Source: Chloroflexota bacterium
GTDB taxonomy: Bacteria; Chloroflexota; Anaerolineae; Anaerolineales; Villigracilaceae
DNA length: 64,000 nt
Direction of reading: 5' to 3'
NCBI GenBank assembly: GCA_016234495.1
Contig: JACRBI010000037.1
Span: 1 to 64,000, forward strand
A program made the translations under genes and the position numbers. Under the pieces are notes generated by a model. It worked only from the letters and a program-made list of their open reading frames with translations, had not been told where the DNA came from and searched no databases. How positions within the stretch are numbered: the first letter of the stretch is position 1; the number at the start of each line of letters is the position of its first letter. Shown in pieces: positions 35,247-59,841 of this stretch.

Positions 35247-35306
35247 GTAAGGGCGACCCTTCATGATTAATCAGAAAGGCGGCCTTGCTAGGCGGGTCGC
35301 CCCTAC
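35247..35306. repeat. GTAAGGGCGACCC inverted repeat, copy 1
   Basis: GTAAGGGCGACCC (35247-35259) and GGGTCGCCCCTAC (35294-35306) are near-perfect arms. The element, with its flank CACAGTAAGGGCG, is the reverse complement-type twin of 54407-54465. It lies in the presumed 5' untranslated region of the XRE gene, downstream of TATAAT at 35212-35217. Confidence 0.75.
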
Positions 35307-41632: not shown

Positions 41633-44600
41633 TTAACTTTTGATCGGCGCGTGCGCAGTCAGGTGTGTTCCCTGACCGGGAGCGCTTTGAATTTGGAGCG
41701 TGCCGCGGATACTGTTGATGCGTTCGCGCATGGAGCGGAAACCCATGTCTTTTGATTTTCGGTCCATGTCGAATCCACAGCCATTGTCTGACACCGATAC
41801 TTGCAGCGAATCGATATTATATAGCAGCGAAATTTCCACGCGTTTCGCCTGACTATGGCGGGAGACATTTGCCAGCGCCTCCTGGATCACGCGGTAAATG
41901 GCCTGTTCCACTTCGAGGGGCAGCGGGCGTTCGGCGCGGATCGTAAGGCTGGCCTCGATGTCGTTGCGGTTTTCCCACTCGAAGACATATTCGCGCAGGC
42001 TGGCGGCGAGACCTTTCTCCTGCAGGGCAATCGGGTAGATCTCCTGAATGAGGAAATTCAATTCCTGAATGACTTCATAGACCAGCGTCTCGGCTTCGAT
42101 AATATGCGGGTTGACTCCGTCCGATTGCTGCTTCAACATGACGTTGACCGTCCCCAATTGCGCGAGGGCGGCGAATGCCTTTTGTTTGGCGCTGTCATGC
42201 AGGTCACGCGCGAGGCGGTTGCGTTCTTCCATCACCGCCAGGTCCTTGGTCTGCTCGAAGAGCTCCATGTTGGCGATGGAGAGCGAGGCGCGCTGGACAA
42301 GCGCGGTGTAGATGCGGACAATATCGTCGTTGATGGCATTCGGGCGCGTGAAGCCGATGTTGAAAACAGCGATGACTTTTTCATCCACTTTGATGGGCAG
42401 GTGCGCGAAGGATTGGATGCCTTCCTCGAGGATGGCGGTGCGCACATCGGGGCGCAGGTCGTCAAGGTTAATATCCGGTTCGATCAGGGTTTCGCCGGTG
42501 GACAATACCCTGCCGACCATGCCCTCGCCTTTGGCGAATTTCAAAACGCTCAAGGTCTTTTTGCTGAAGCCGTAGCTGACCCGCGGACTGACACAAGTCT
42601 GTTCCTCGTCCCATGCGAGCACAACGCTGCGGTCGGCTTTCAAGTTTTCGACCGCCACATTGACGAGAGTTTGAAAGACCTGATTTAAACTGACCGTACG
42701 CAGAATTTTTTCGTCAGCCTGATAGAGCGCTTCCATTTCAGTGTTGCGCTTCTTGAGTTCCCCGGTGCGTTCATGCACCACGTTTTCAAGTTCGCGGTTG
42801 CGCGCCTGGATGGCGGCCAGCCTCAGCCTGTATCCGCCTGCGATGGCAGAAGCAAGCCCGAGCGCGAAGAGGATGCGGAATAAATTCGTCTGCCAGAAGG
42901 GCGGGATGACAGTCACTTTAATCCGCAGGGGAGTCTCATTCCACGTGCCGTCGCTGTTGCTGCCTTTGAGTAAAAGGGTATATGTGCCGCCGGGCAGGTT
43001 GGTGTAGCGGCTGCTGTGCTTTGCGCCGATGAAGTTCCATTCATCGTCAAAATATTCAAGCATGTACGCGTATTGATTCTTGCCGGGCTGACCATAGGCG
43101 AGCGCCGCGAACTCGAACTCGAATGAGTTGAGCGGCCAGCGCAGGGTAAGCTCCTGCAAAGATTCAACGCGCACATCGGTTGCGATGGGTTCGCCGTTCT
43201 GGGTGAGGGAGGTCAATACGATGGGCGGGATATAGCTGTCGGTGGCGGCGGAGAGCGGGTTGAAGAAGTTGAGGCCGTTGATGCCGCCGAAATACATCTC
43301 GCCGCGCGGCGTGACGGCGTAGGCGTTGGAGTTGAATTCGTTGCTTTGCAGTCCGTCGCTGACGGTGTAGTTTCTAAAATTGATGCGCTGCGGGTCGAAG
43401 CGCGACAGGCCGTAATTTGTGCTCAGCCATAAATGATTTTCACGGTCTTCGAGGATGCCGTAGATGACGTTGTTCGGCAGGCCGTCCTTTTCGGTGAAGG
43501 AGGTAAACGAGTCGGTCATCAGGTCGTAGCGGTTCAAGCCGCCGCCTGCGGTGCCGACCCAGATGCTGCCGTCGCGGCTTTGGTGGATGGAGAGGATGGC
43601 GTCGTTGCTCAAACTTTTTTGGTCGCCGCGGCGGTTTTGATAGCGGGTGAATTTTCCGGTCTGGCGGCTGAAGCGGTTGAGTCCGCTGTCGGCGGTGCCG
43701 ACCCACAGATTGCCCTGCAGGTCTTCTTCGATGGCAGTCACATGCTGGTCGCTGAGGCTGTTCGAGTCGCCGGGGTCGGGACGATAGTGGAAGAAGGTTT
43801 CAGTGACCGGGTCGAATTGATCGAGGCCGCTGCCGGTGCCGAGCCAGAGCCGTCCGTTGCGATCTTCAAAGATCGTGTAAACAGGCAGGCCGGATAAACT
43901 ATTGGATTCTTCGATCGGGATGTAGCGCTTCGCCTTGCCGGTCTGCGGGTCGAACCGGTCGAGCGCGCTGGCGGTGCCGACCCAAAGCTGGCCGTGACGA
44001 TCCACGAGCGTGGAATAGACCTGTTCGCTGCTCAGGCTTTGCGGGTCGGCGGGGTCGTGGTGATATTGCTTGAATTCGCCGGTAGTGGGTGTGAAGCGGT
44101 TGAGTCCGTTTTCAAGCGTGCCGACCCAGACCGTGCCTTTTGATTCGGCGAAGATGGATGAGATCAAATTCCCGCTCAAACTGGACGGGTTGGAGGGGTC
44201 GCCGCGATAATAGGCAAATTCATCCTGCCGGCGGTTGTACTTATTCAGTCCGCCGCCAAAGGTGCCGACCCACATCACGCCGCCGCGGTCTTCGAAGATG
44301 CTCAGGATAATGTTGTTGCTCAGGCTGCCGGGGTTGGCAGGCTCATGGCGGTAATGGATGAAGTGATCGAGTTGGGCGTTGTAAACCTCCAGCCCGTTGT
44401 TGGTGCCGACCCACAGCACGCCGTTGTGGTCGAGGTATAAATGATGCAGGTCGTTGTTGGACAGGCTTTCAGCGTCATTGGGATTATGAACATAGCGGGC
44501 GAAGGTCTGTGTGTTGGGCTGGTAGCGGTTCAATCCGTTTTGGGTGGCGATCCATAAATTTCCGGCGAGGTCTTCGGCGATGGCGGTGACGTTGTTGTCG

Positions 44601-45349
44601 CTCAGGCTGGCGGCGCTTTTCCCGGATTGGAAGGTCTTGAACAGATTGGTTGATTCGTCTAGCTGGTACAGGCCGTTCTCTGCCACGCCCGCCCATAAAA
44701 AGCCGGTCGAGCTTTCGTAGATGGCAGTGACGGGATTATCCAGCCCGCCTTCGCTGCCGATGTAGTGGATGAAGGATTCGTCCACAGAGTTGAAGCGGTC
44801 GAGGTCTGAGTCGGTGCCGACCCATAAATCTCCGTTTTTATCGATGAAGAGTGAGTTGACGCGGTTGTTGCTGAGACTCAAACTGTCGCCGGGGTCATGC
44901 TTGAAGACGGTGAACAGGCCGGAGCGTGGATCGAAGCGGTTCAGTCCGCCTTGACGGGTGCCGATCCAGATGAATCCGCTTTGGTCTTCAACGATGGCGG
45001 TGATCCAGCCGTTGCTGAGGCTGTTTTCATCTTCGGCTGTGGGGCGGTAGACTTTGAAGCTGTAGCCGTCGTAGCGGTTTAATCCATCTTCGGTGCCGAA
45101 CCAGAGGAAGCCCTTGCTGTCTTGGAAGATGACGTTAACCACGCTTTGCGAGAGTCCCTGTTCGAGGCTGATGTGTTCAAAACGGATGGAGCGGTTGAAG
45201 CTGGGCGCGGCGTTTTGAATGGGCGGCTGCGGCTGTTGCGTGGCGGTGGGGGGCGGCACAGCCGGCGTGCTGGTGGCAAGGTTTGACCCGCACGCGGTCA
45301 GAATGAGCGCGGTAATGAGCAGGGCGGCTGCGCGGCGGATTTGTTTCAT
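41633..45349 (-). CDS. Large NarX-like histidine kinase with propeller sensor
   Basis: About 1238 residues. The start at 45349 (MKQIRR) is followed by a signal peptide with a possible lipobox (LILTAC). A long series of about 43-residue two-component-regulator propeller repeats (SLSNN...I.EDR.G.LWVGT...GLNRFDP) covers roughly 55-720. A Y_Y_Y domain follows (about 735-800), then one membrane helix near 830 (LFRILFALGLASAIAGGY), a GAF domain, and HisKA_3 (ARDLHDSAKQ) with HATPase. It should sense an outside ligand and phosphorylate the NarL-type regulator. The lipobox and the transmembrane helix together are unusual. Confidence 0.93.
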   Translation of the reverse strand: MKQIRRAAALLITALILTACGSNLATSTPAVPPPTATQQPQPPIQNAAPSFNRSIRFEHISLEQGLSQSVVNVIFQDSKGFLWFGTEDGLNRYDGYSFKVYRPTAEDENSLSNGWITAIVEDQSGFIWIGTRQGGLNRFDPRSGLFTVFKHDPGDSLSLSNNRVNSLFIDKNGDLWVGTDSDLDRFNSVDESFIHYIGSEGGLDNPVTAIYESSTGFLWAGVAENGLYQLDESTNLFKTFQSGKSAASLSDNNVTAIAEDLAGNLWIATQNGLNRYQPNTQTFARYVHNPNDAESLSNNDLHHLYLDHNGVLWVGTNNGLEVYNAQLDHFIHYRHEPANPGSLSNNIILSIFEDRGGVMWVGTFGGGLNKYNRRQDEFAYYRGDPSNPSSLSGNLISSIFAESKGTVWVGTLENGLNRFTPTTGEFKQYHHDPADPQSLSSEQVYSTLVDRHGQLWVGTASALDRFDPQTGKAKRYIPIEESNSLSGLPVYTIFEDRNGRLWLGTGSGLDQFDPVTETFFHYRPDPGDSNSLSDQHVTAIEEDLQGNLWVGTADSGLNRFSRQTGKFTRYQNRRGDQKSLSNDAILSIHQSRDGSIWVGTAGGGLNRYDLMTDSFTSFTEKDGLPNNVIYGILEDRENHLWLSTNYGLSRFDPQRINFRNYTVSDGLQSNEFNSNAYAVTPRGEMYFGGINGLNFFNPLSAATDSYIPPIVLTSLTQNGEPIATDVRVESLQELTLRWPLNSFEFEFAALAYGQPGKNQYAYMLEYFDDEWNFIGAKHSSRYTNLPGGTYTLLLKGSNSDGTWNETPLRIKVTVIPPFWQTNLFRILFALGLASAIAGGYRLRLAAIQARNRELENVVHERTGELKKRNTEMEALYQADEKILRTVSLNQVFQTLVNVAVENLKADRSVVLAWDEEQTCVSPRVSYGFSKKTLSVLKFAKGEGMVGRVLSTGETLIEPDINLDDLRPDVRTAILEEGIQSFAHLPIKVDEKVIAVFNIGFTRPNAINDDIVRIYTALVQRASLSIANMELFEQTKDLAVMEERNRLARDLHDSAKQKAFAALAQLGTVNVMLKQQSDGVNPHIIEAETLVYEVIQELNFLIQEIYPIALQEKGLAASLREYVFEWENRNDIEASLTIRAERPLPLEVEQAIYRVIQEALANVSRHSQAKRVEISLLYNIDSLQVSVSDNGCGFDMDRKSKDMGFRSMRERINSIRGTLQIQSAPGQGTHLTAHAPIKS

Positions 45350-45522: not shown

Positions 45523-45602
45523 TAACGCGAATTTGGCGAATGAAGCAAATTGCGCGAATTTTTTAAAGTTTTCGCGAAATTCGCTCAATTAGCGTAATTA
45601 GC
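45523..45602. repeat. GCGAATT-rich inverted repeat
   Basis: In the 45350-45671 spacer, TAACGCGAATTTGGCGAAT is followed by GCGCGAATTTTTTAAAG, TTCGCGAAATTCGCT and AATTAGCGTAATTAG, an imperfect inverted repeat. Related words occur at 48793-48828. Apart from this nothing is seen between the kinase start and the RHS scrap. Confidence 0.5.
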
Positions 45603-45671
45603 ATTAAAGATTTTTCTACTTTGAGGCACGGCTTTTATATGCGGTTGTAACGCGAAGGAGTAAAATCACTC

Positions 45672-48792: not shown

Positions 48793-48867
48793 TAACGCGA
48801 ATTACGCCAATTCAACGAATTTCGCGGTAAGCCTATCTCGCGTAACGCGACATTAATGTCGCGCTAC
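48793..48867. repeat. GCGAATT repeat plus GTAA...CTAC palindrome
   Basis: Bases 48793-48828 read TAACGCGAATTACGCCAATT and CGAATTTCGCGG. Bases 48842-48867 are a 26-bp palindrome from GTAACGCGACATT to AATGTCGCGCTAC with one mismatch; its right foot is CTAC. Both are in the spacer between ctaA and the TPR gene. Confidence 0.6.
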
Positions 48868-51560: not shown

Positions 51561-54383
51561 TTATGACCGAAGTACCGTCATTTCGCCCCAACTCGCGCCC
51601 GCTCTTGCTTCTGTTTCGAGCGGAATGCTCATCGGGTAGGCATTTGTCATCGTCGCCTGCACAAGGCGCGCGGTCTTTTCCAGCTCATTCTTCGGGCATT
51701 CCAGCACAAGTTCATCATGCACTTGCAAAAGCATTTTGGCTTTCAAGCCTGCCGCTTTGAGCGCGGATGGAATCTTCAGCATCGCAAGCTTCATGATGTC
51801 TGCGGCTGTGCCTTGAATGGGCGCGTTGATCGCTTCGCGTTCTTCGCGGTTCTTCAACTGGACGTTGAGCTTGCTCTGCAATGCCGGGAAATATCTTTTG
51901 CGCCCGAGCAGGGTTTCCACGTAGCCGATCTCCGCCGCCTGCCTGCGGATGCCATCCAGATATTTTTTGACGCCGGGGAATTTTGTGAAATAAGCTTTGA
52001 CAAAGGCTTCGGCCTCCGCCAGAGTCAATTCTGTTGAGCGAGCCAGTCCGAAGGCAGACATGCCATAGATGAGTCCGAAGTTGATGGCTTTGGCATGGCG
52101 GCGCATTTCTTTCGTGACCTTGTCCAGTTCAATGTCGTAGATGGCGGCGGCGGTCGTGGCGTGAATATCCTCGCCTGCGCGGAATGCCTTGAGCATGGAT
52201 TCATCCTCCGCCATGTGCGCGACGATGCGTAACTCAATTTGAGAGTAATCCACTGAAAGCAGCACATTGCCTTTGTCGGCGATGAATCCGTTTCGCACGC
52301 GGCGTCCTGTCTCGGTGCGGATGGGGATATTTTGCAGGTTTGGGTTATTCGATGAAAGCCGCCCGGTCACCGCTCCGATCTGACTGTAGGAGGTATGCAC
52401 GCGCCCGGTATTTGAATCGACTGCGGCGGGCAGGGCATCCACATAAGTGGATTTGAGTTTCGCCAGTTCTCGGTTTTCGAGAATCCATTCCAATATCGGA
52501 TGCTTGTCTCTCAGCATTTCCAAAACATCTGCGGATGTGGAATAAAATCCCGTCGCTGTTTTGCGTCCCTTATCCGGTGGTTCGAGGCGCAGGTGATTGA
52601 ACAGCACATCCGAGAGCTGCTGCGGCGAGTTGATGTTGAAAGACTTTCCCGCAAGCTGGAAAATCTCCTTTTCAATTTCTGCCAGACGAAGCGCAAGCTC
52701 AACAGACATTTTGCTGAAGAATTTTGTATCGATCAACGCGCCTGTCATTTCCATATCGGCCAGCACGGGCGTGAGCGGCAGGTCAATTTCTGCGAGCAGT
52801 TTCGCACCATTCGCCCGTTCCAAATCCTTTTGCAGAATCGGCATCAGGCGCAGAGTCGTTTCCGCATCAGCCGCGGCGTATGGCGCAACGGACTCGATTG
52901 CAATATCGGCCATGCTCAGTTGATTTTTCCCCTTGCCGATCAACTCTTCGATGTGAGTCATTTCCTCACCCAGCCGCGCAAGGACGAGATTCTTCAAGCC
53001 GAGGTTGCGCGAGGACGGGTCAATGATGAACTCGGCCAGCATCGTGTCGAAGGCCAACGGCGCAACGACCAGCCCGTAGCGCGCGAGGACGATGTAATCA
53101 TATTTCGCGTTGTGCGCGATCTTGCCGATTCTTGCATCCGTCATGGATGGCGTCAGCGCGGCGATCACTTTTTCGATCGGCAGGTTGTTTCCGGAAGTAT
53201 GCCCAACGGGGATGTAATATCCCTGACCTGCTTTGACCGCCAGCGAGATGCCGACGATCTCGGCTCGCATTTCTTCGGTGGAAGTTGTCTCTGTGTCGAA
53301 GGAGATTATCTTTGCTCTGGCAAGTTCCTTCGCGAGATCATTCAACTTGTCCAGTGAATCGACAATGACAACTTCAATGTTTGAGGTTTGCAGAGTCGCC
53401 ACCACCTGCGGTTCGTTTGCGAACATCGAGAATTGTCCGCTTTTGGTTTTTACCGGTTTGACGGTTGTGCCTGTCGAAACAGGAGCAGTTGTCGGCGCGG
53501 AGGATGATCCGCTGCTGATCGCTGGGACTTTGCTCAATAGGGTTTTAAATTCCATCTCTTTGAAAAATTCTTCAAGAGCAGTCGGATCAAATGGAGCGAC
53601 TTTGGCATGATCCAGATCAAGTTTTATTTTCAAGTCTGTGCGGATCAGCGCGAGGTCGTAACTCATGTAAGCGGCATCCTTGCTTGATTCAAGTTTGCCC
53701 TTCCAGCGGTTCTCCACCTGATCTATATTTTTATAAATTTCATCCAGTGTGCCGAATTTTTCAAGCAGCGCGATCGCGGTTTTTTCGCCTACGCCTTTCA
53801 CGCCGGGGATGTTGTCGGATGTGTCGCCGACGATGGCTTTGTAATCCACCACTTGATTGGCACGCACGCCCAGTTTTTTGATTACATCCGCATCTGTGAT
53901 GTAGGTCTGGTCATCGCCTGCGAGATAAACTGCCGTGCGGTCATTGACCAACTGCAGCAGGTCTCTGTCGCCGGTGATGATCTTTACGCCCAAGCCTTGT
54001 TCTGCGGCGAGCCGCGCAACTGTGCCGAGCACATCGTCAGCTTCGAAGCCGTCCATTTCGAGGCGTGGGATATTGAACGCATCCACCATTTCACGGATGC
54101 GCTCGATCTGCGGGCGCAGGTCATCGGGCATTTTTTCGCGCGTGCCTTTATATTCGGGGAAGATGTCGTCGCGGAAGGTCTTGCCCACGTCAAAAGCCAC
54201 GGCCAGATATTCGGGTTTTTCCTGTTCCAAAACGCGGAAGAGTTCGCGCGCGAAACCGTAGATTCCCGCTGTGGGTTCGCCTTTGGAGTTTTGCCAGCGC
54301 TGGCTGCTTGCGCCGGCGGTCAGGGCAAAATACATACGATAAGCGAGGGCGTGTCCATCAATTAAGTAAAGTGTAGGTGGCAT
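51561..54383 (-). CDS. polA: DNA polymerase I
   Basis: 940 residues. The 5' nuclease domain (1-290) starts LYLIDGHALAYRMYFAL and has GFEADDVLGT and ITGDRDLLQLV. The 3'-5' exonuclease (about 330-520) keeps FDTETTS, IAHNAKYD and YAAADAET, so proofreading is probably active. The polymerase has motif A DYSQIELRIVAH, motif B RRHAKAINFGLIYG and motif C LQVHDELVLE. Its role is Okazaki-fragment processing and repair. No good Shine-Dalgarno lies before ATG 54383. A GTAG-type element (54407-54465) lies just upstream. Confidence 0.97.
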   Translation of the reverse strand: MPPTLYLIDGHALAYRMYFALTAGASSQRWQNSKGEPTAGIYGFARELFRVLEQEKPEYLAVAFDVGKTFRDDIFPEYKGTREKMPDDLRPQIERIREMVDAFNIPRLEMDGFEADDVLGTVARLAAEQGLGVKIITGDRDLLQLVNDRTAVYLAGDDQTYITDADVIKKLGVRANQVVDYKAIVGDTSDNIPGVKGVGEKTAIALLEKFGTLDEIYKNIDQVENRWKGKLESSKDAAYMSYDLALIRTDLKIKLDLDHAKVAPFDPTALEEFFKEMEFKTLLSKVPAISSGSSSAPTTAPVSTGTTVKPVKTKSGQFSMFANEPQVVATLQTSNIEVVIVDSLDKLNDLAKELARAKIISFDTETTSTEEMRAEIVGISLAVKAGQGYYIPVGHTSGNNLPIEKVIAALTPSMTDARIGKIAHNAKYDYIVLARYGLVVAPLAFDTMLAEFIIDPSSRNLGLKNLVLARLGEEMTHIEELIGKGKNQLSMADIAIESVAPYAAADAETTLRLMPILQKDLERANGAKLLAEIDLPLTPVLADMEMTGALIDTKFFSKMSVELALRLAEIEKEIFQLAGKSFNINSPQQLSDVLFNHLRLEPPDKGRKTATGFYSTSADVLEMLRDKHPILEWILENRELAKLKSTYVDALPAAVDSNTGRVHTSYSQIGAVTGRLSSNNPNLQNIPIRTETGRRVRNGFIADKGNVLLSVDYSQIELRIVAHMAEDESMLKAFRAGEDIHATTAAAIYDIELDKVTKEMRRHAKAINFGLIYGMSAFGLARSTELTLAEAEAFVKAYFTKFPGVKKYLDGIRRQAAEIGYVETLLGRKRYFPALQSKLNVQLKNREEREAINAPIQGTAADIMKLAMLKIPSALKAAGLKAKMLLQVHDELVLECPKNELEKTARLVQATMTNAYPMSIPLETEARAGASWGEMTVLRS

Positions 54384-54406: not shown

Positions 54407-54465
54407 GTAGGGGCGACCCGCCTTATAAAGTCAAGGCATTTATATTCTTGATGGGTCGCCCTTAC
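54407..54465. repeat. GTAGGGGCGACCC inverted repeat, copy 2
   Basis: GTAGGGGCGACCC (54407-54419) and GGGTCGCCCTTAC (54453-54465) pair with one mismatch. It is the inverted twin of 35247-35306. It lies 53 bp past the stop of the Y1-transposase fusion gene and 23 bp before polA. Confidence 0.75.
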
Positions 54466-54484: not shown

Positions 54485-54514
54485 AAAGCGCAGAGTTATT
54501 ATACTCTGCGCTTT
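54485..54514 (-). terminator. Terminator of the Y1-fusion gene
   Basis: AAAGCGCAGAGT (54485-54496) pairs with ACTCTGCGCTTT (54503-54514). On the minus strand T-rich sequence follows. Confidence 0.85.
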
Positions 54515-54518
54515 TTCG

Positions 54519-56120
54519 TCAGCCTCGCGAGCGCTGGGGTGAAAGAGGAATTTCCTGTCCCTGCCGCTGGCGTGTCTGGCGGATGTAATCCCGCACCAGC
54601 TGTGGCGGGTGGGGCTGTGTTCCGCCCATGATGAGGTATCCGGGCGCCCAAAAGTCGCCGGATGGATTCTCTTTCTTTAAGCGAATGATCTCGGTAAAAA
54701 TCTTGTCGGAGGTTTGCTGGCGCATAATCCGCATGAGATAGCCGGGCGATGTATTCGGCTGCACATTCGCCACCCACTGCAAATATTCCGGGCGTACGGC
54801 AAGATATTCCAGCCGCCAGCCGAAGGCAATGCAAATATTTGGCAGCCATTCGCCGAGGCGTTCAGCCAGGTCACCGGTAATGTAATGGGCTGAAAAACGC
54901 GGCACAAGCAAGCACGCATAGGTGAGGTGATACAAGCCTGCCGAGGCTGGCTCGATGACGAGTTTGCGCGCCGCTTCCGTGGTCGGGCTTGCGCGGGTGA
55001 CATCCATTTCGCCGGGCGCGGGTCTTGCCACAGGCGTCTCCGGTCTTTGTTTGGGCTGGGCGGCGCCATCTATTTTTTCGAACGCTGATGACGGCCTCAC
55101 GGATTGATCCGGGTCGTTCATCACAAGTTTATCGAGCTGAATGGAAGGGGACGGCTCGCGGTTGAATACGCCTGCATTCGAAAGCGAGGACGAGATGCGC
55201 GTTTCGTTGGGATCGAATTTTGCTTCACGAGCTGAAGCAGGCTCGGGGTTTGGCGAAGGGATATTGGTGAGGATTTGTGAAATGGGGGCGATATTAAGGT
55301 CTTCGCCCTCATCGTCAAAATCGGCGGGGAAGTCCGCGCTTGGCTTGGGGGCAGGCTTGATCGGTTTTTGAACCTCAGGTCGGTCGGCGCCAAAGTCATT
55401 GACAAGTTGGTTGGCCTGTCCGCGGATGGTGCTAAAGGGAGTCTCTGCGTCGAAAACAAGAGCAAGTACGGTGTCGGTTGTGAGGCGGGTGGCGTAGAGC
55501 ATGTGTTCGGCCTTTGTGCTTTCAAGCCGGATAAATCGCAGCAAGTCTGAGCCTCTTTGCCCATCCCAGTTTCGTGTGACGGTTTGAGCCACTTCTCGTG
55601 CCGCGCTTTGCGAAAGTCCGCCCGCGTAGGCCCAAAGATCATTCTTGCGGGTGATCAGCGCTGCTTGAGCCGAAGATTCCAAAGTGATGCGCGTCAGGTG
55701 TTGCGCGGCCTTGGTGGCATCGTTCAGCCAGGGGGTGGCTGTGTTTATATTTGCAGAAGCAGGTGTCGGTTGAGGTTGACTGATTGCGTTCATAAAGTCC
55801 GCCATTCTAAAAGGTTTGCGAACAAGGATCCAGGGGCGCAGGTCATCGAAAAGTGGAACGGATGCGCCATCATCACAAAGGATGACGAGATTGATGCCCT
55901 GGCGAATGGTGCGCAGTGCGAGGCCGGTTTCTATGAGCATGTCCTCGCCGAGAGCCAGGTCAAGCAGAGCCAGCGGGACGCCAATTGCATCTGCGCGTAC
56001 CACAGCGGTTGATTTATTGGTCACCACATGGACACGATAAAACGCCGTCTCTTCCAATGTGCGACGGATCGTTTCGCCAAGGGCGGAAGATGGGGTGACT
56101 ACAAGAACATCCGCGGGCAT
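54519..56120 (-). CDS. Receiver-like / Roadblock-like / degenerate Y1-transposase fusion
   Basis: 533 residues. Residues 1-115 look like a response-regulator receiver: LALLDLAL keeps the phospho-acceptor Asp and RKPF the Lys, but the acidic pair is replaced (VVTPSS). Residues about 130-250 resemble a Roadblock/LC7 domain (SSAQAALITRKNDLWAYAGG, VLALVFDAETPFSTIRGQ). A Pro-rich disordered linker covers about 255-390. Residues 394-515 resemble the IS200/REP-type Y1 transposase: YHLTYACLLVPRF, AERLGEWLPNICIAFGWRLE, DFWAPGYLIMGG, and Tyr512 in VRDYIRQ. The HUH histidines are Tyr446 and Gln448 here (RPEYLQ). I infer a domesticated, probably non-cutting DNA-hairpin binder. Confidence 0.72.
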   Translation of the reverse strand: MPADVLVVTPSSALGETIRRTLEETAFYRVHVVTNKSTAVVRADAIGVPLALLDLALGEDMLIETGLALRTIRQGINLVILCDDGASVPLFDDLRPWILVRKPFRMADFMNAISQPQPTPASANINTATPWLNDATKAAQHLTRITLESSAQAALITRKNDLWAYAGGLSQSAAREVAQTVTRNWDGQRGSDLLRFIRLESTKAEHMLYATRLTTDTVLALVFDAETPFSTIRGQANQLVNDFGADRPEVQKPIKPAPKPSADFPADFDDEGEDLNIAPISQILTNIPSPNPEPASAREAKFDPNETRISSSLSNAGVFNREPSPSIQLDKLVMNDPDQSVRPSSAFEKIDGAAQPKQRPETPVARPAPGEMDVTRASPTTEAARKLVIEPASAGLYHLTYACLLVPRFSAHYITGDLAERLGEWLPNICIAFGWRLEYLAVRPEYLQWVANVQPNTSPGYLMRIMRQQTSDKIFTEIIRLKKENPSGDFWAPGYLIMGGTQPHPPQLVRDYIRQTRQRQGQEIPLSPQRSRG

Positions 56121-56188: not shown

Positions 56189-56770
56189 TCAATCTGCGCT
56201 GGGGTTTCTCGCGGAGGCATCGAAATCGCCTTGCAGTTCTTTTATTCCCAATAAAGCCATCAGCACTTCGGGTGGAAGTTCCGCTTCGGGCAGGTCAACC
56301 TTGTAGAGCTGGTCGTTCTCCGCTCGTTCACGCAAGGAACGCCACAACGTTTGCCGCTCATCTCCGCTGACAACGAGGTCGTTCAATGTTTTTGCGTTCA
56401 GCAGATACTCGCCCGTGGAATACAGGAAGGTCAGCCGCTTCCATTTTTCGGCGCTGATGGGTTGGGATAATTTTTCCAGCCCGCCGATCTGGATTTTGTA
56501 ATACTCTTCCCTCGCGCGCGCATGCTCTGCTTCGTCACGCAGCAGGTCGGCGCGTGTGGTTAATTCGTGACCGTTCACCTTGGCTGCGAACTCGATCCGT
56601 CCGCCGCGTTCGGCGAATGCCGAGGGTTGGTAAAAAGCCAGATAGTCCACGGCAACCACTTTCGGCGCGGTGCGAAGCGGGATGCGATACCATCCCAAAA
56701 GCCGCGCGATCTCCAAATCCCGTGGTGACGGCAGCAGGGCAACGAGGACCAAGTCAGTGGGTTTTATCAT
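56189..56770 (-). CDS. Conserved-looking protein upstream of the Y1 fusion, unknown
   Basis: 193 residues, soluble. It starts DLVLVALLPSPRDLEIARLL, then WYRIPLRTAPKVVAVDYLAF and KRLTFLYSTGEYLLNAKTLN. It seems to belong to a family of uncharacterised proteins, but no function is known to me. It lies 68 bp before the fusion gene on the same strand, so they may be one transcript. A perfect TATAAT (56779-56784 on the minus strand) lies 8 nt before ATG 56770. Confidence 0.75.
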   Translation of the reverse strand: MIKPTDLVLVALLPSPRDLEIARLLGWYRIPLRTAPKVVAVDYLAFYQPSAFAERGGRIEFAAKVNGHELTTRADLLRDEAEHARAREEYYKIQIGGLEKLSQPISAEKWKRLTFLYSTGEYLLNAKTLNDLVVSGDERQTLWRSLRERAENDQLYKVDLPEAELPPEVLMALLGIKELQGDFDASARNPSAD

Positions 56771-59141: not shown

Positions 59142-59429
59142 ATGGCTCAGTACAAAGTTGGCATTCGTGATTTGAAGACGCATCTTAGTTCTTATCTGGA
59201 AAAAGTGCAAAAGGGGCATACGATTATTATCACCTCGCACGGCAAGCCCATTGCCAACCTCACTCCAAACAGGGAGGAGTTGGCAGACCGCATCAAGGCA
59301 TTGCAGGAGGCGGGGTTGATCTCGTGGAATGGAAAGAAAATGCGCGATATTTCTCCCGTTGCAATAAATCGCGGTGAAAAACTTGCTTCAGATATTGTTG
59401 TGGAGATGCGCGATGAATCTTTATTTTGA
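59142..59429 (+). CDS. Phd/YefM-family antitoxin
   Basis: 95 residues. VGIRDLKTHLSSYLEKVQKG, then TIIITSHGKPIANLTP, is the Phd/YefM DNA-binding start. The C-terminal 40 residues (AGLISWNGKKMRDISPV) should wrap the toxin. AAGGAG lies before ATG 59142. It overlaps the toxin gene by 17 nt. Confidence 0.93.
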   Translation: MAQYKVGIRDLKTHLSSYLEKVQKGHTIIITSHGKPIANLTPNREELADRIKALQEAGLISWNGKKMRDISPVAINRGEKLASDIVVEMRDESLF

Positions 59430-59841
59430 TACCAGTGCCCTTGTAAAAAGATATATCAAGGAAGCTGGGTCGGAAAGTGTTCGCGAATGGATTCGTTCAT
59501 CAGACCACAAAGCTACAGGATTAATCACAAGGGCGGAATTATCGGCGGGTATTAATCGTTTGCTGCGGATGAAATACATTATCCCGGAAGATTATACAAA
59601 AGCCCTGCACGAATTCCGCATTGACTGGGAATCTTTCAACCGTATTCCAATTACCGAACAACTTGTCGCACGGGCAGATTTGCTTGCTTGTGAATATTCC
59701 CTGCGCGGATATGACGCCATCCATCTCGCCTGCGCATTGACATGGCAGGACTTGCTTGGCACGCAGGTTTCCCTTGCAAGTTTTGATAAAGAACTCCTGG
59801 ACGCTGCGCAAAAAATGGGGATGGAAGTTTTGTATCAGTAA
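59413..59841 (+). CDS. PIN-domain toxin (VapC-like)
   Basis: 142 residues. The acidic residues of the PIN ribonuclease site are present: YFDTSALVKRY, TRAELSAG, GYDAIHLA and SFDKEL. It should cut RNA when not held by the antitoxin. ATG 59413 lies inside the antitoxin gene with GGAG upstream; a longer frame from 59374 is unlikely. Confidence 0.93.
   Translation: MNLYFDTSALVKRYIKEAGSESVREWIRSSDHKATGLITRAELSAGINRLLRMKYIIPEDYTKALHEFRIDWESFNRIPITEQLVARADLLACEYSLRGYDAIHLACALTWQDLLGTQVSLASFDKELLDAAQKMGMEVLYQ

Follow-up and report, generated by a model that had tools for sequence, protein, structure and literature searches.

The window, a 64,000-nucleotide stretch of Chloroflexota DNA, carries on its minus strand an open reading frame (54519..56120) for a protein of 533 amino acids plus stop, whose Met1 is nearly invariant in an alignment of 36 homologues (A1, window protein included). 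From the N-terminus, this Rec-Roadblock-Y1 protein comprises a receiver-like domain (residues 1-116, 55773..56120), a Roadblock/LC7-like domain (residues 129-245, 55386..55736), a linker (residues 246-393, 54942..55385), and a degenerate Y1 domain that resembles the IS200/IS605 transposase TnpA (residues 394-523, 54552..54941), all on the minus strand. Directly past the stop codon lies a perfect, terminator-like 12-bp inverted repeat (54485..54514, no strand assigned), and in the window this hairpin separates the gene from polA (51561..54383, minus strand), which is the next gene downstream on the same strand and encodes DNA polymerase I (Pfam DNA_pol_A, E=3.8e-155). Upstream, a 193-aa protein without a Pfam match is encoded at 56189-56770 (minus strand) and is present in 33/74 loci. 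Elsewhere in the window, a 68-nt unit occurs in seven imperfect copies (43417-45023), and two small overlapping plus-strand frames (59142-59841) look by eye like a Phd/PIN toxin-antitoxin pair.

The receiver-like domain is supported by conservation, an AlphaFold model, Foldseek, and Pfam Response_reg, which matches 12/36 proteins of A1. The original prediction that it keeps its Asp and Lys and has lost its acidic pair holds throughout the close homologues: Asp54 (codon 55959-55961, minus strand) is found in 56/56 that have the domain, Lys102 (codon 55815-55817, minus strand) in 58/58, and positions 9 and 10, the place of the acidic pair, are acidic in 0/56. Deeper relatives (e.g., L096 and L101) have an Asp at this place by eye. 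The full-length model is confident at residues ~1-115 and 130-245, and the Foldseek matches of the first part include Spo0F, CheY, and MtrA receivers. Those of the second part include MglB, MP1-p14, and Rag/Gtr chains (target TM-scores of 0.59-0.69 for the MglB chains of 6hjm and 0.70 for 3cpt_B, MP1-p14), which bears out the predicted profilin-like/Roadblock segment. These three families are known for the Roadblock fold. Pfam Robl_LC7 has no match in the window protein up to E=10 and is not among the families matched by A1; for so divergent a Roadblock domain, fold comparison is the better test. Two homologues match from about residue 102 on and are missing the receiver domain (L084 8001-9257 and L085 8001-9275), and an 811-aa open frame in L020 and L087 has 266 residues ahead of the usual start, which are either an extension or a chance frame. 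The linker is modelled with low confidence (pLDDT <50 nearly throughout) and is variable.

The sole Pfam match in the window protein is Y1_Tnp at residues 397-515 (E=9e-11, 42.4 bits, cut-off 23), and this family is matched by 36/36 members of A1. The NCBIfam IS200 model (NF033573) scores 48.3 bits, below its cut-off of 55, and a phmmer search of the PDB with the window protein returned six transposase sequences at E <0.001. The full-length model does not resolve the Y1 domain (pLDDT ~35-76 per ten residues). Modelled alone, the domain adopts a usable fold of middling confidence (pLDDT 65, pTM 0.59), and its best 24 Foldseek matches are all Y1 transposases. Structural re-comparison of this model gave Z-scores of 7.8-10.0 for 14 Y1 rows, with 2ec2 at 10.0, while the best chain from outside the Y1 group reached 5.6. 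The predicted C-terminal transposase fold is thus upheld, with other folds scoring lower, and all three folds, receiver, Roadblock, and Y1, were recovered from the structure comparisons.

The Y1 domain has lost its metal site. The HUH motif was predicted to have both histidines replaced and the tyrosine kept, and the alignment of this position agrees: the former HUH position (residues 446-448, 54777..54785, minus strand) reads Tyr-Leu-Gln, and Tyr446, Gln448, Trp491, and the former catalytic tyrosine Tyr512 (54585..54587, minus strand) are each invariant in 58/58 distinct close homologues. In IS608 TnpA, a further residue, Gln131, sits four positions past the tyrosine (available text of PMC6006769). 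The corresponding residue is Thr516 in the window protein (Thr in 53, Ile in 4, and Val in 1 of the 58 close homologues), so the third metal-ligand position is lost as well. We compared these positions across a wider set made up of 13 transposases with HUH intact, 32 fused proteins, and 16 degenerate Y1 proteins that are free-standing. HxH is present in 13/13 intact, 0/32 fused, and 1/16 free-standing domains, tyrosine in 13/13, 15/32, and 10/16, and both together in 13/13, 0/32, and 0/16; the intact domains were found with the degenerate-family profile and defined by HxH plus Tyr, so their own HUH and Tyr counts are circular, which does not apply to the basic pair, the +4 Gln, the +5 Arg, or the tree described below. 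Gln at +4 is found in 10/13 intact, 7/32 fused, and 0/16 free-standing domains, and a basic pair at positions 410/411 in 12/13, 0/32, and 0/16 (0/48 degenerate domains). In untrimmed sequences, the degenerate domains share residues past the tyrosine that the intact ones mostly lack: Arg at +5 (48/48 versus 1/13), Gln at +8 (40/48 versus 1/13), and Gly at +9 (37/48 versus 0/13). The former HUH residues themselves form a mosaic among degenerate domains (Y-Q, H-Q, Y-H, C-V, F-Y, and others), as is expected once selection for catalysis has ended. The intact domains (n=13) have a mean net charge of 5.6, as against 0.55 for 49 degenerate domains (p=1e-5 by a Mann-Whitney test whose rows are not independent); the window Y1 domain has a net charge of +4 and may therefore have retained nucleic-acid binding. 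The domain architecture together with the HUH loss is confirmed, far beyond chance.

Could the domain still be a nuclease or ligase that relies on Tyr512, either metal-free or with a metal site of another kind? The invariance of Tyr512 in the close family would fit such an enzyme. We nevertheless consider it highly improbable, as all three known metal-ligand positions are changed in the window lineage, the tyrosine has become Phe (16) or Leu (1) in 17/32 fused domains, and Tyr-to-Phe mutants of TnpA_REP gave no cleavage (PMC8266576, in the part available).

Despite the lost cutting site, conservation within the protein is highest in the Y1 domain. Mean pairwise identity over 1540 pairs is 0.862 for Y1, 0.830 for Roadblock, 0.624 for the receiver, and 0.474 for the linker (residues 246-390). 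In five pairs, dN/dS is 0.028-0.038 for Y1, 0.031-0.070 for Roadblock, 0.093-0.141 for the receiver, and 0.073-0.171 for the linker; these values are approximate because many of the dS estimates lie around 1 or higher. A dN/dS of about 0.03 in a domain without its cutting site argues that Y1 is needed, and for something other than cutting. It seems that the bacteria have kept the dead Y1 domain for good as a functional component of the signalling protein.

Homologues match in 55/61 genomes (the window genome and 60 relatives), including 36/37 of the genus, where the exception (G014) is 71% complete. Within the genus, the full architecture occupies one place per genome, with split or partial copies as exceptions: the reading frame is broken in two in G007, G016, and G035, G013 has residues 1-220 only, and G023 has a second piece of 24 residues. 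A scan of genome contigs gave 60 loci, all Chloroflexota-type and mostly Anaerolineales or plain Chloroflexi. The Y1 profile matched in 46/298 genomes of a class-wide sample, as fused proteins and ordinary transposases, and in 64/300 genomes of a phylum-wide sample. Outside the class, the matches listed are frames of 64-212 aa plus one of 482 aa (G540), and several genomes are multi-copy; the absence of fused forms there is judged from frame lengths and six sequences among the matches listed, the G540 frame aside. Ordinary Y1 matches reach 13 per genome (in G533 and in G446). Six plasmid records match, with the C-terminal part only, and all are annotated as IS200/IS605 transposases, while phage sequences searched with the window protein gave no match. 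Proteins with the same domain order, proposed as a search in the original prediction, thus occur across several families of the class, with HxH in none of the 32 fused proteins compared, and the fused form is not multiplied.

A tree built from 61 Y1 domains sets all 13 intact domains apart by a branch with support of 100/99, and the 16 free-standing degenerate copies group together (99/92), placed among fused domains from the order; the tree left out L155 (tyrosine position broken in the alignment), L190 (truncated), duplicates, partial rows, and rows of <95 residues. A single clade of fused proteins was rejected (p-AU 0.006, for groups named after earlier results), since free-standing copies are nested within the fused ones. 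These copies occur in recurrent settings. One heads a flagellar operon in G000 (the window genome), G006, and G007; in G000, the operon includes FlbD, MotA, and FliM (Pfam), with a chemoreceptor-like gene on the opposite side (by similarity or by eye), and in G002 a contig end leaves only the chemoreceptor side of such a locus. The G000 protein from this operon (L226 4640-5212, G000:C52) has HLH but Phe for Tyr and is the single free-standing protein with HxH in the wider set. Other copies, such as L227 4484-5071 (G000:C14), lie near an Mrr-type protein, a 7TM histidine kinase, response regulators, and MraZ in G000, G008, G009, G021, G025, and G031 (genes assigned by Pfam in G000 and by blastp to G000 in the five others). 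These two-component-type copies are likewise no single clade, as L231 and L234 fall with the flagellar copies. A copy in G021 (L235) has another setting, and a sister genus (G551) also has a free-standing degenerate copy. The window genome holds all three degenerate kinds and three HUH-bearing Y1 proteins (L142, L144, and L146 on G000:C29, C49, and C45), which match Y1_Tnp in frames of 188-246 aa, keep HUH, and are RAYT-like by eye.

A receiver followed by a C-terminal output domain is the classic response-regulator layout. This layout and the presence of free-standing copies in regulatory and motility operons would fit a transcription regulator, in which receiver and Roadblock take inputs and the Y1 fold would read double-stranded promoter DNA, perhaps that of polA. 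To our knowledge, though, Y1 domains act on structured single-stranded DNA and not on duplex promoters, and with the low net charge of the degenerate domains we regard this reading as improbable.

The gene is linked to polA in most but not all places. By tblastn, polA was found in 64/74 loci that hold the gene, and some of the remainder are contig ends. Among 91 candidate loci, 80 have enough downstream sequence (>=700 nt), and in 71/80 polA lies on the same strand <=3 kb downstream; 68 of these gaps are <=560 nt, three of the 71 are >1.3 kb, and 9/80 loci are without the linkage. Linkage here means distance and strand regardless of intervening genes, with polA starts extrapolated from tblastn. 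At least two of the 80 loci are repeats (L126 of L099 and L129 of L219), which gives 70/78. Loci L001-L030 were left out as repeats (25/29 of L002-L030 have an identical protein among L031-L090); the other four (L012, L016, L025, and L028) are each followed by polA in the same orientation. Gaps are as short as 6-12 nt in L093, L094, L096, and L098, from other families of the order, which makes co-transcription with polA likely in these four. In G206 and G250, the gene and polA are on different contigs. In L211 (G037) and L164 (G068), polA is overlapped or directly adjoined by a receiver-Roadblock protein that has no Y1, so the polA link may predate the Y1 part. A universal link was rejected: of 50 stretches picked by hand from the upstream side of polA, three of them incomplete and most belonging to families in which the Y1 profile has no match, only five (L164, L179, L188, L190, and L201) have a Roadblock-bearing frame.

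A functionless protein, be it a mobile element in decay or a chance fusion, would explain the broken active site and the frames in two pieces in three genomes, yet it is barely credible for a domain with a dN/dS of ~0.03 that is spread over several families of the class in conserved gene order and is not multiplied in its fused form. The proposal that the protein is domesticated and not mobile gains from its single place per genome within the genus, its conserved position beside polA, the low dN/dS, the clean separation from intact transposases in the tree, and the outcome of the plasmid and phage searches, in which plasmids gave short IS200 transposases only and phages gave none. Judged from sequence, domestication is well supported.

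Two families of hairpin repeats occur in the window. A REP-like GTAG inverted pair, GTAGGGGCGACC, is found between the gene and polA (54407-54465) and at 35247-35306. The window genome has 34 exact GTAG half-sites versus 3 for a reversed control, and the inverted pair lies on one side of the gene; relatives were compared for the exact motif only. Half-sites number 0 to 63 across 22 genus relatives, 21 of them gene-bearing, and the one without a match, G014 (71% complete), has 13. The exact motif occurs in 9/225 loci, three of which are the window's own locus, and in the others it is never in the gene-polA gap. A role of the GTAG hairpin as a conserved cis target was therefore rejected, as the exact motif is absent from the relatives' gap and its abundance does not match the distribution of the gene. 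A second, dispersed hairpin repeat of ~83 bp is built of GCGAATNNN units (45524-45605 and 48794-48820) and has 77 matches in the genome (<=3 mismatches, some overlapping; reversed control 0), many near contig ends. An association of this GCGAAT repeat with a transposase gene, as in a REPtron, was rejected; among the six Y1_Tnp places of the genome, none lies closer to a listed copy than the window gene does, at ~5.8 kb.

The original prediction saw in the protein a signal-controlled binder of hairpin DNA, and the binding half of this claim is weakened. In such a protein, receiver and Roadblock would switch a dead, non-cutting Y1 domain on or off specific structured DNA, hairpins or single strands. 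The fold is suited to it, as Y1 proteins bind single-stranded DNA hairpins in TnpA_IS200 (PMC6006769) and TnpA_REP (PMC8266576), as far as the available parts of both sources go. Lys or Arg is kept at position 408 in 30/32 fused domains and at 467 in 22/32, the GTAG hairpin adjoins the gene in the window, and the linked gene encodes a DNA enzyme. Against this, the KYRK-type basic stretch, seen as the 410/411 pair in 12/13 intact domains, is gone from all 48 degenerate ones, mean net charge has fallen from 5.6 to 0.55, the exact GTAG motif is missing from the gene-polA gap of relatives, and the number of half-sites does not track the gene. The three HUH-bearing, RAYT-like proteins of the window genome are also better candidates for the GTAG hairpins. 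We regard hairpin binding as possible but unlikely. Of signal control, the receiver and Roadblock folds stand, and the receiver of the window lineage is without its Mg-binding acids, so classical phosphorylation is doubtful; signal control remains plausible.

Within the reach of sequence evidence, it is established that this signalling protein contains a Y1 domain that is domesticated and catalytically dead. What the domain does there is best captured, on an evenly balanced judgement, by a non-cutting signalling adaptor of Anaerolineae-type Chloroflexota, in which the dead Y1 domain serves as a docking or interaction module and is genetically coupled to PolA. The receiver and Roadblock parts would take signal input and bind partners, perhaps an MglA-type GTPase in the case of Roadblock. 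The window genome seems to encode one, an Arf-matching GTPase that is "MglA-like" by eye, in addition to two Robl_LC7 proteins. The dead Y1 fold would mediate dimerisation or dock a partner protein, and the polA linkage makes a partner in DNA replication or repair most likely. Docking of a partner in the sphere of PolA and replication is our best inference, with binding of single-stranded or hairpin DNA as its main rival; plain docking leaves the invariance of Tyr512 in the close family unexplained.

A more specific version of the adaptor is a long shot: Y1 may have been kept for a docking surface beside the old tyrosine, by which the receiver-Roadblock protein would subject PolA or the clamp to control by signals, the module being reused in flagellar and two-component operons. 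For TnpA_IS608, the region adjoining the catalytic tyrosine has been proposed to touch the clamp DnaN (PMC6006769, in the part available). The source transposase domain would once have followed the replication fork and then lost its cutting site, and the stretch beside the old tyrosine, which now has an invariant Arg and mostly Gln-Gly, unlike intact relatives, would be the surface. If so, the dead Y1 domain would be a new kind of bacterial signalling domain.

Compared with IS200/IS605 TnpA (PF01797, NF033573), the window protein shares the whole-domain fold, the tyrosine position, and the conserved Trp before the last strand. It differs in being without HUH, the +4 Gln, and the KYRK-type basic stretch, and its Y1 domain is part of a 533-aa signalling protein, is not multiplied, and falls below the NCBIfam IS200 cut-off. 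TnpA_REP proteins, or RAYTs, are likewise chromosomal, domesticated relatives of TnpA; by the available account (PMC8266576), they keep HUH and Tyr and cut the REP hairpins that flank their genes, whereas the window protein has no metal site. No conserved REP flank was found at Rec-Roadblock-Y1 loci when the exact GTAG motif was sought in relatives. Wuichet and Sogaard-Andersen (PMC4316618) noted single chains that combine Response_reg with a Robl_LC7 or MglB-like region, which is the same Response_reg-Roadblock arrangement, and the part of that paper available to us mentions no Y1 domain. The TnpA_Y1 census of Quentin et al. 2018 dropped unexpectedly long proteins and required HuH plus Tyr in its core set (PMC6006769); going by these filters, as given in the available part of the source, a Rec-Roadblock-Y1 protein would have dropped out. 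The original prediction knew of no described system of this architecture, and our literature searches of titles and abstract openings likewise turned up no description.

TldRs are nuclease-dead TnpB repressors, in which a transposon protein has lost catalysis and is kept by the host; TnpB is an RNA-guided nuclease of another fold, and TldRs use a guide RNA. The window protein resembles them as a host-kept, dead transposon protein and differs in its fold and in the guide RNA. Domesticated transposases are usually retained for their action on DNA. In contrast, the cutting site is gone here, yet the fold is the best conserved part of the protein, is linked to polA, and also stands free in motility and sensing operons, which offers a testable case of a mobile-element enzyme converted to a signalling part.
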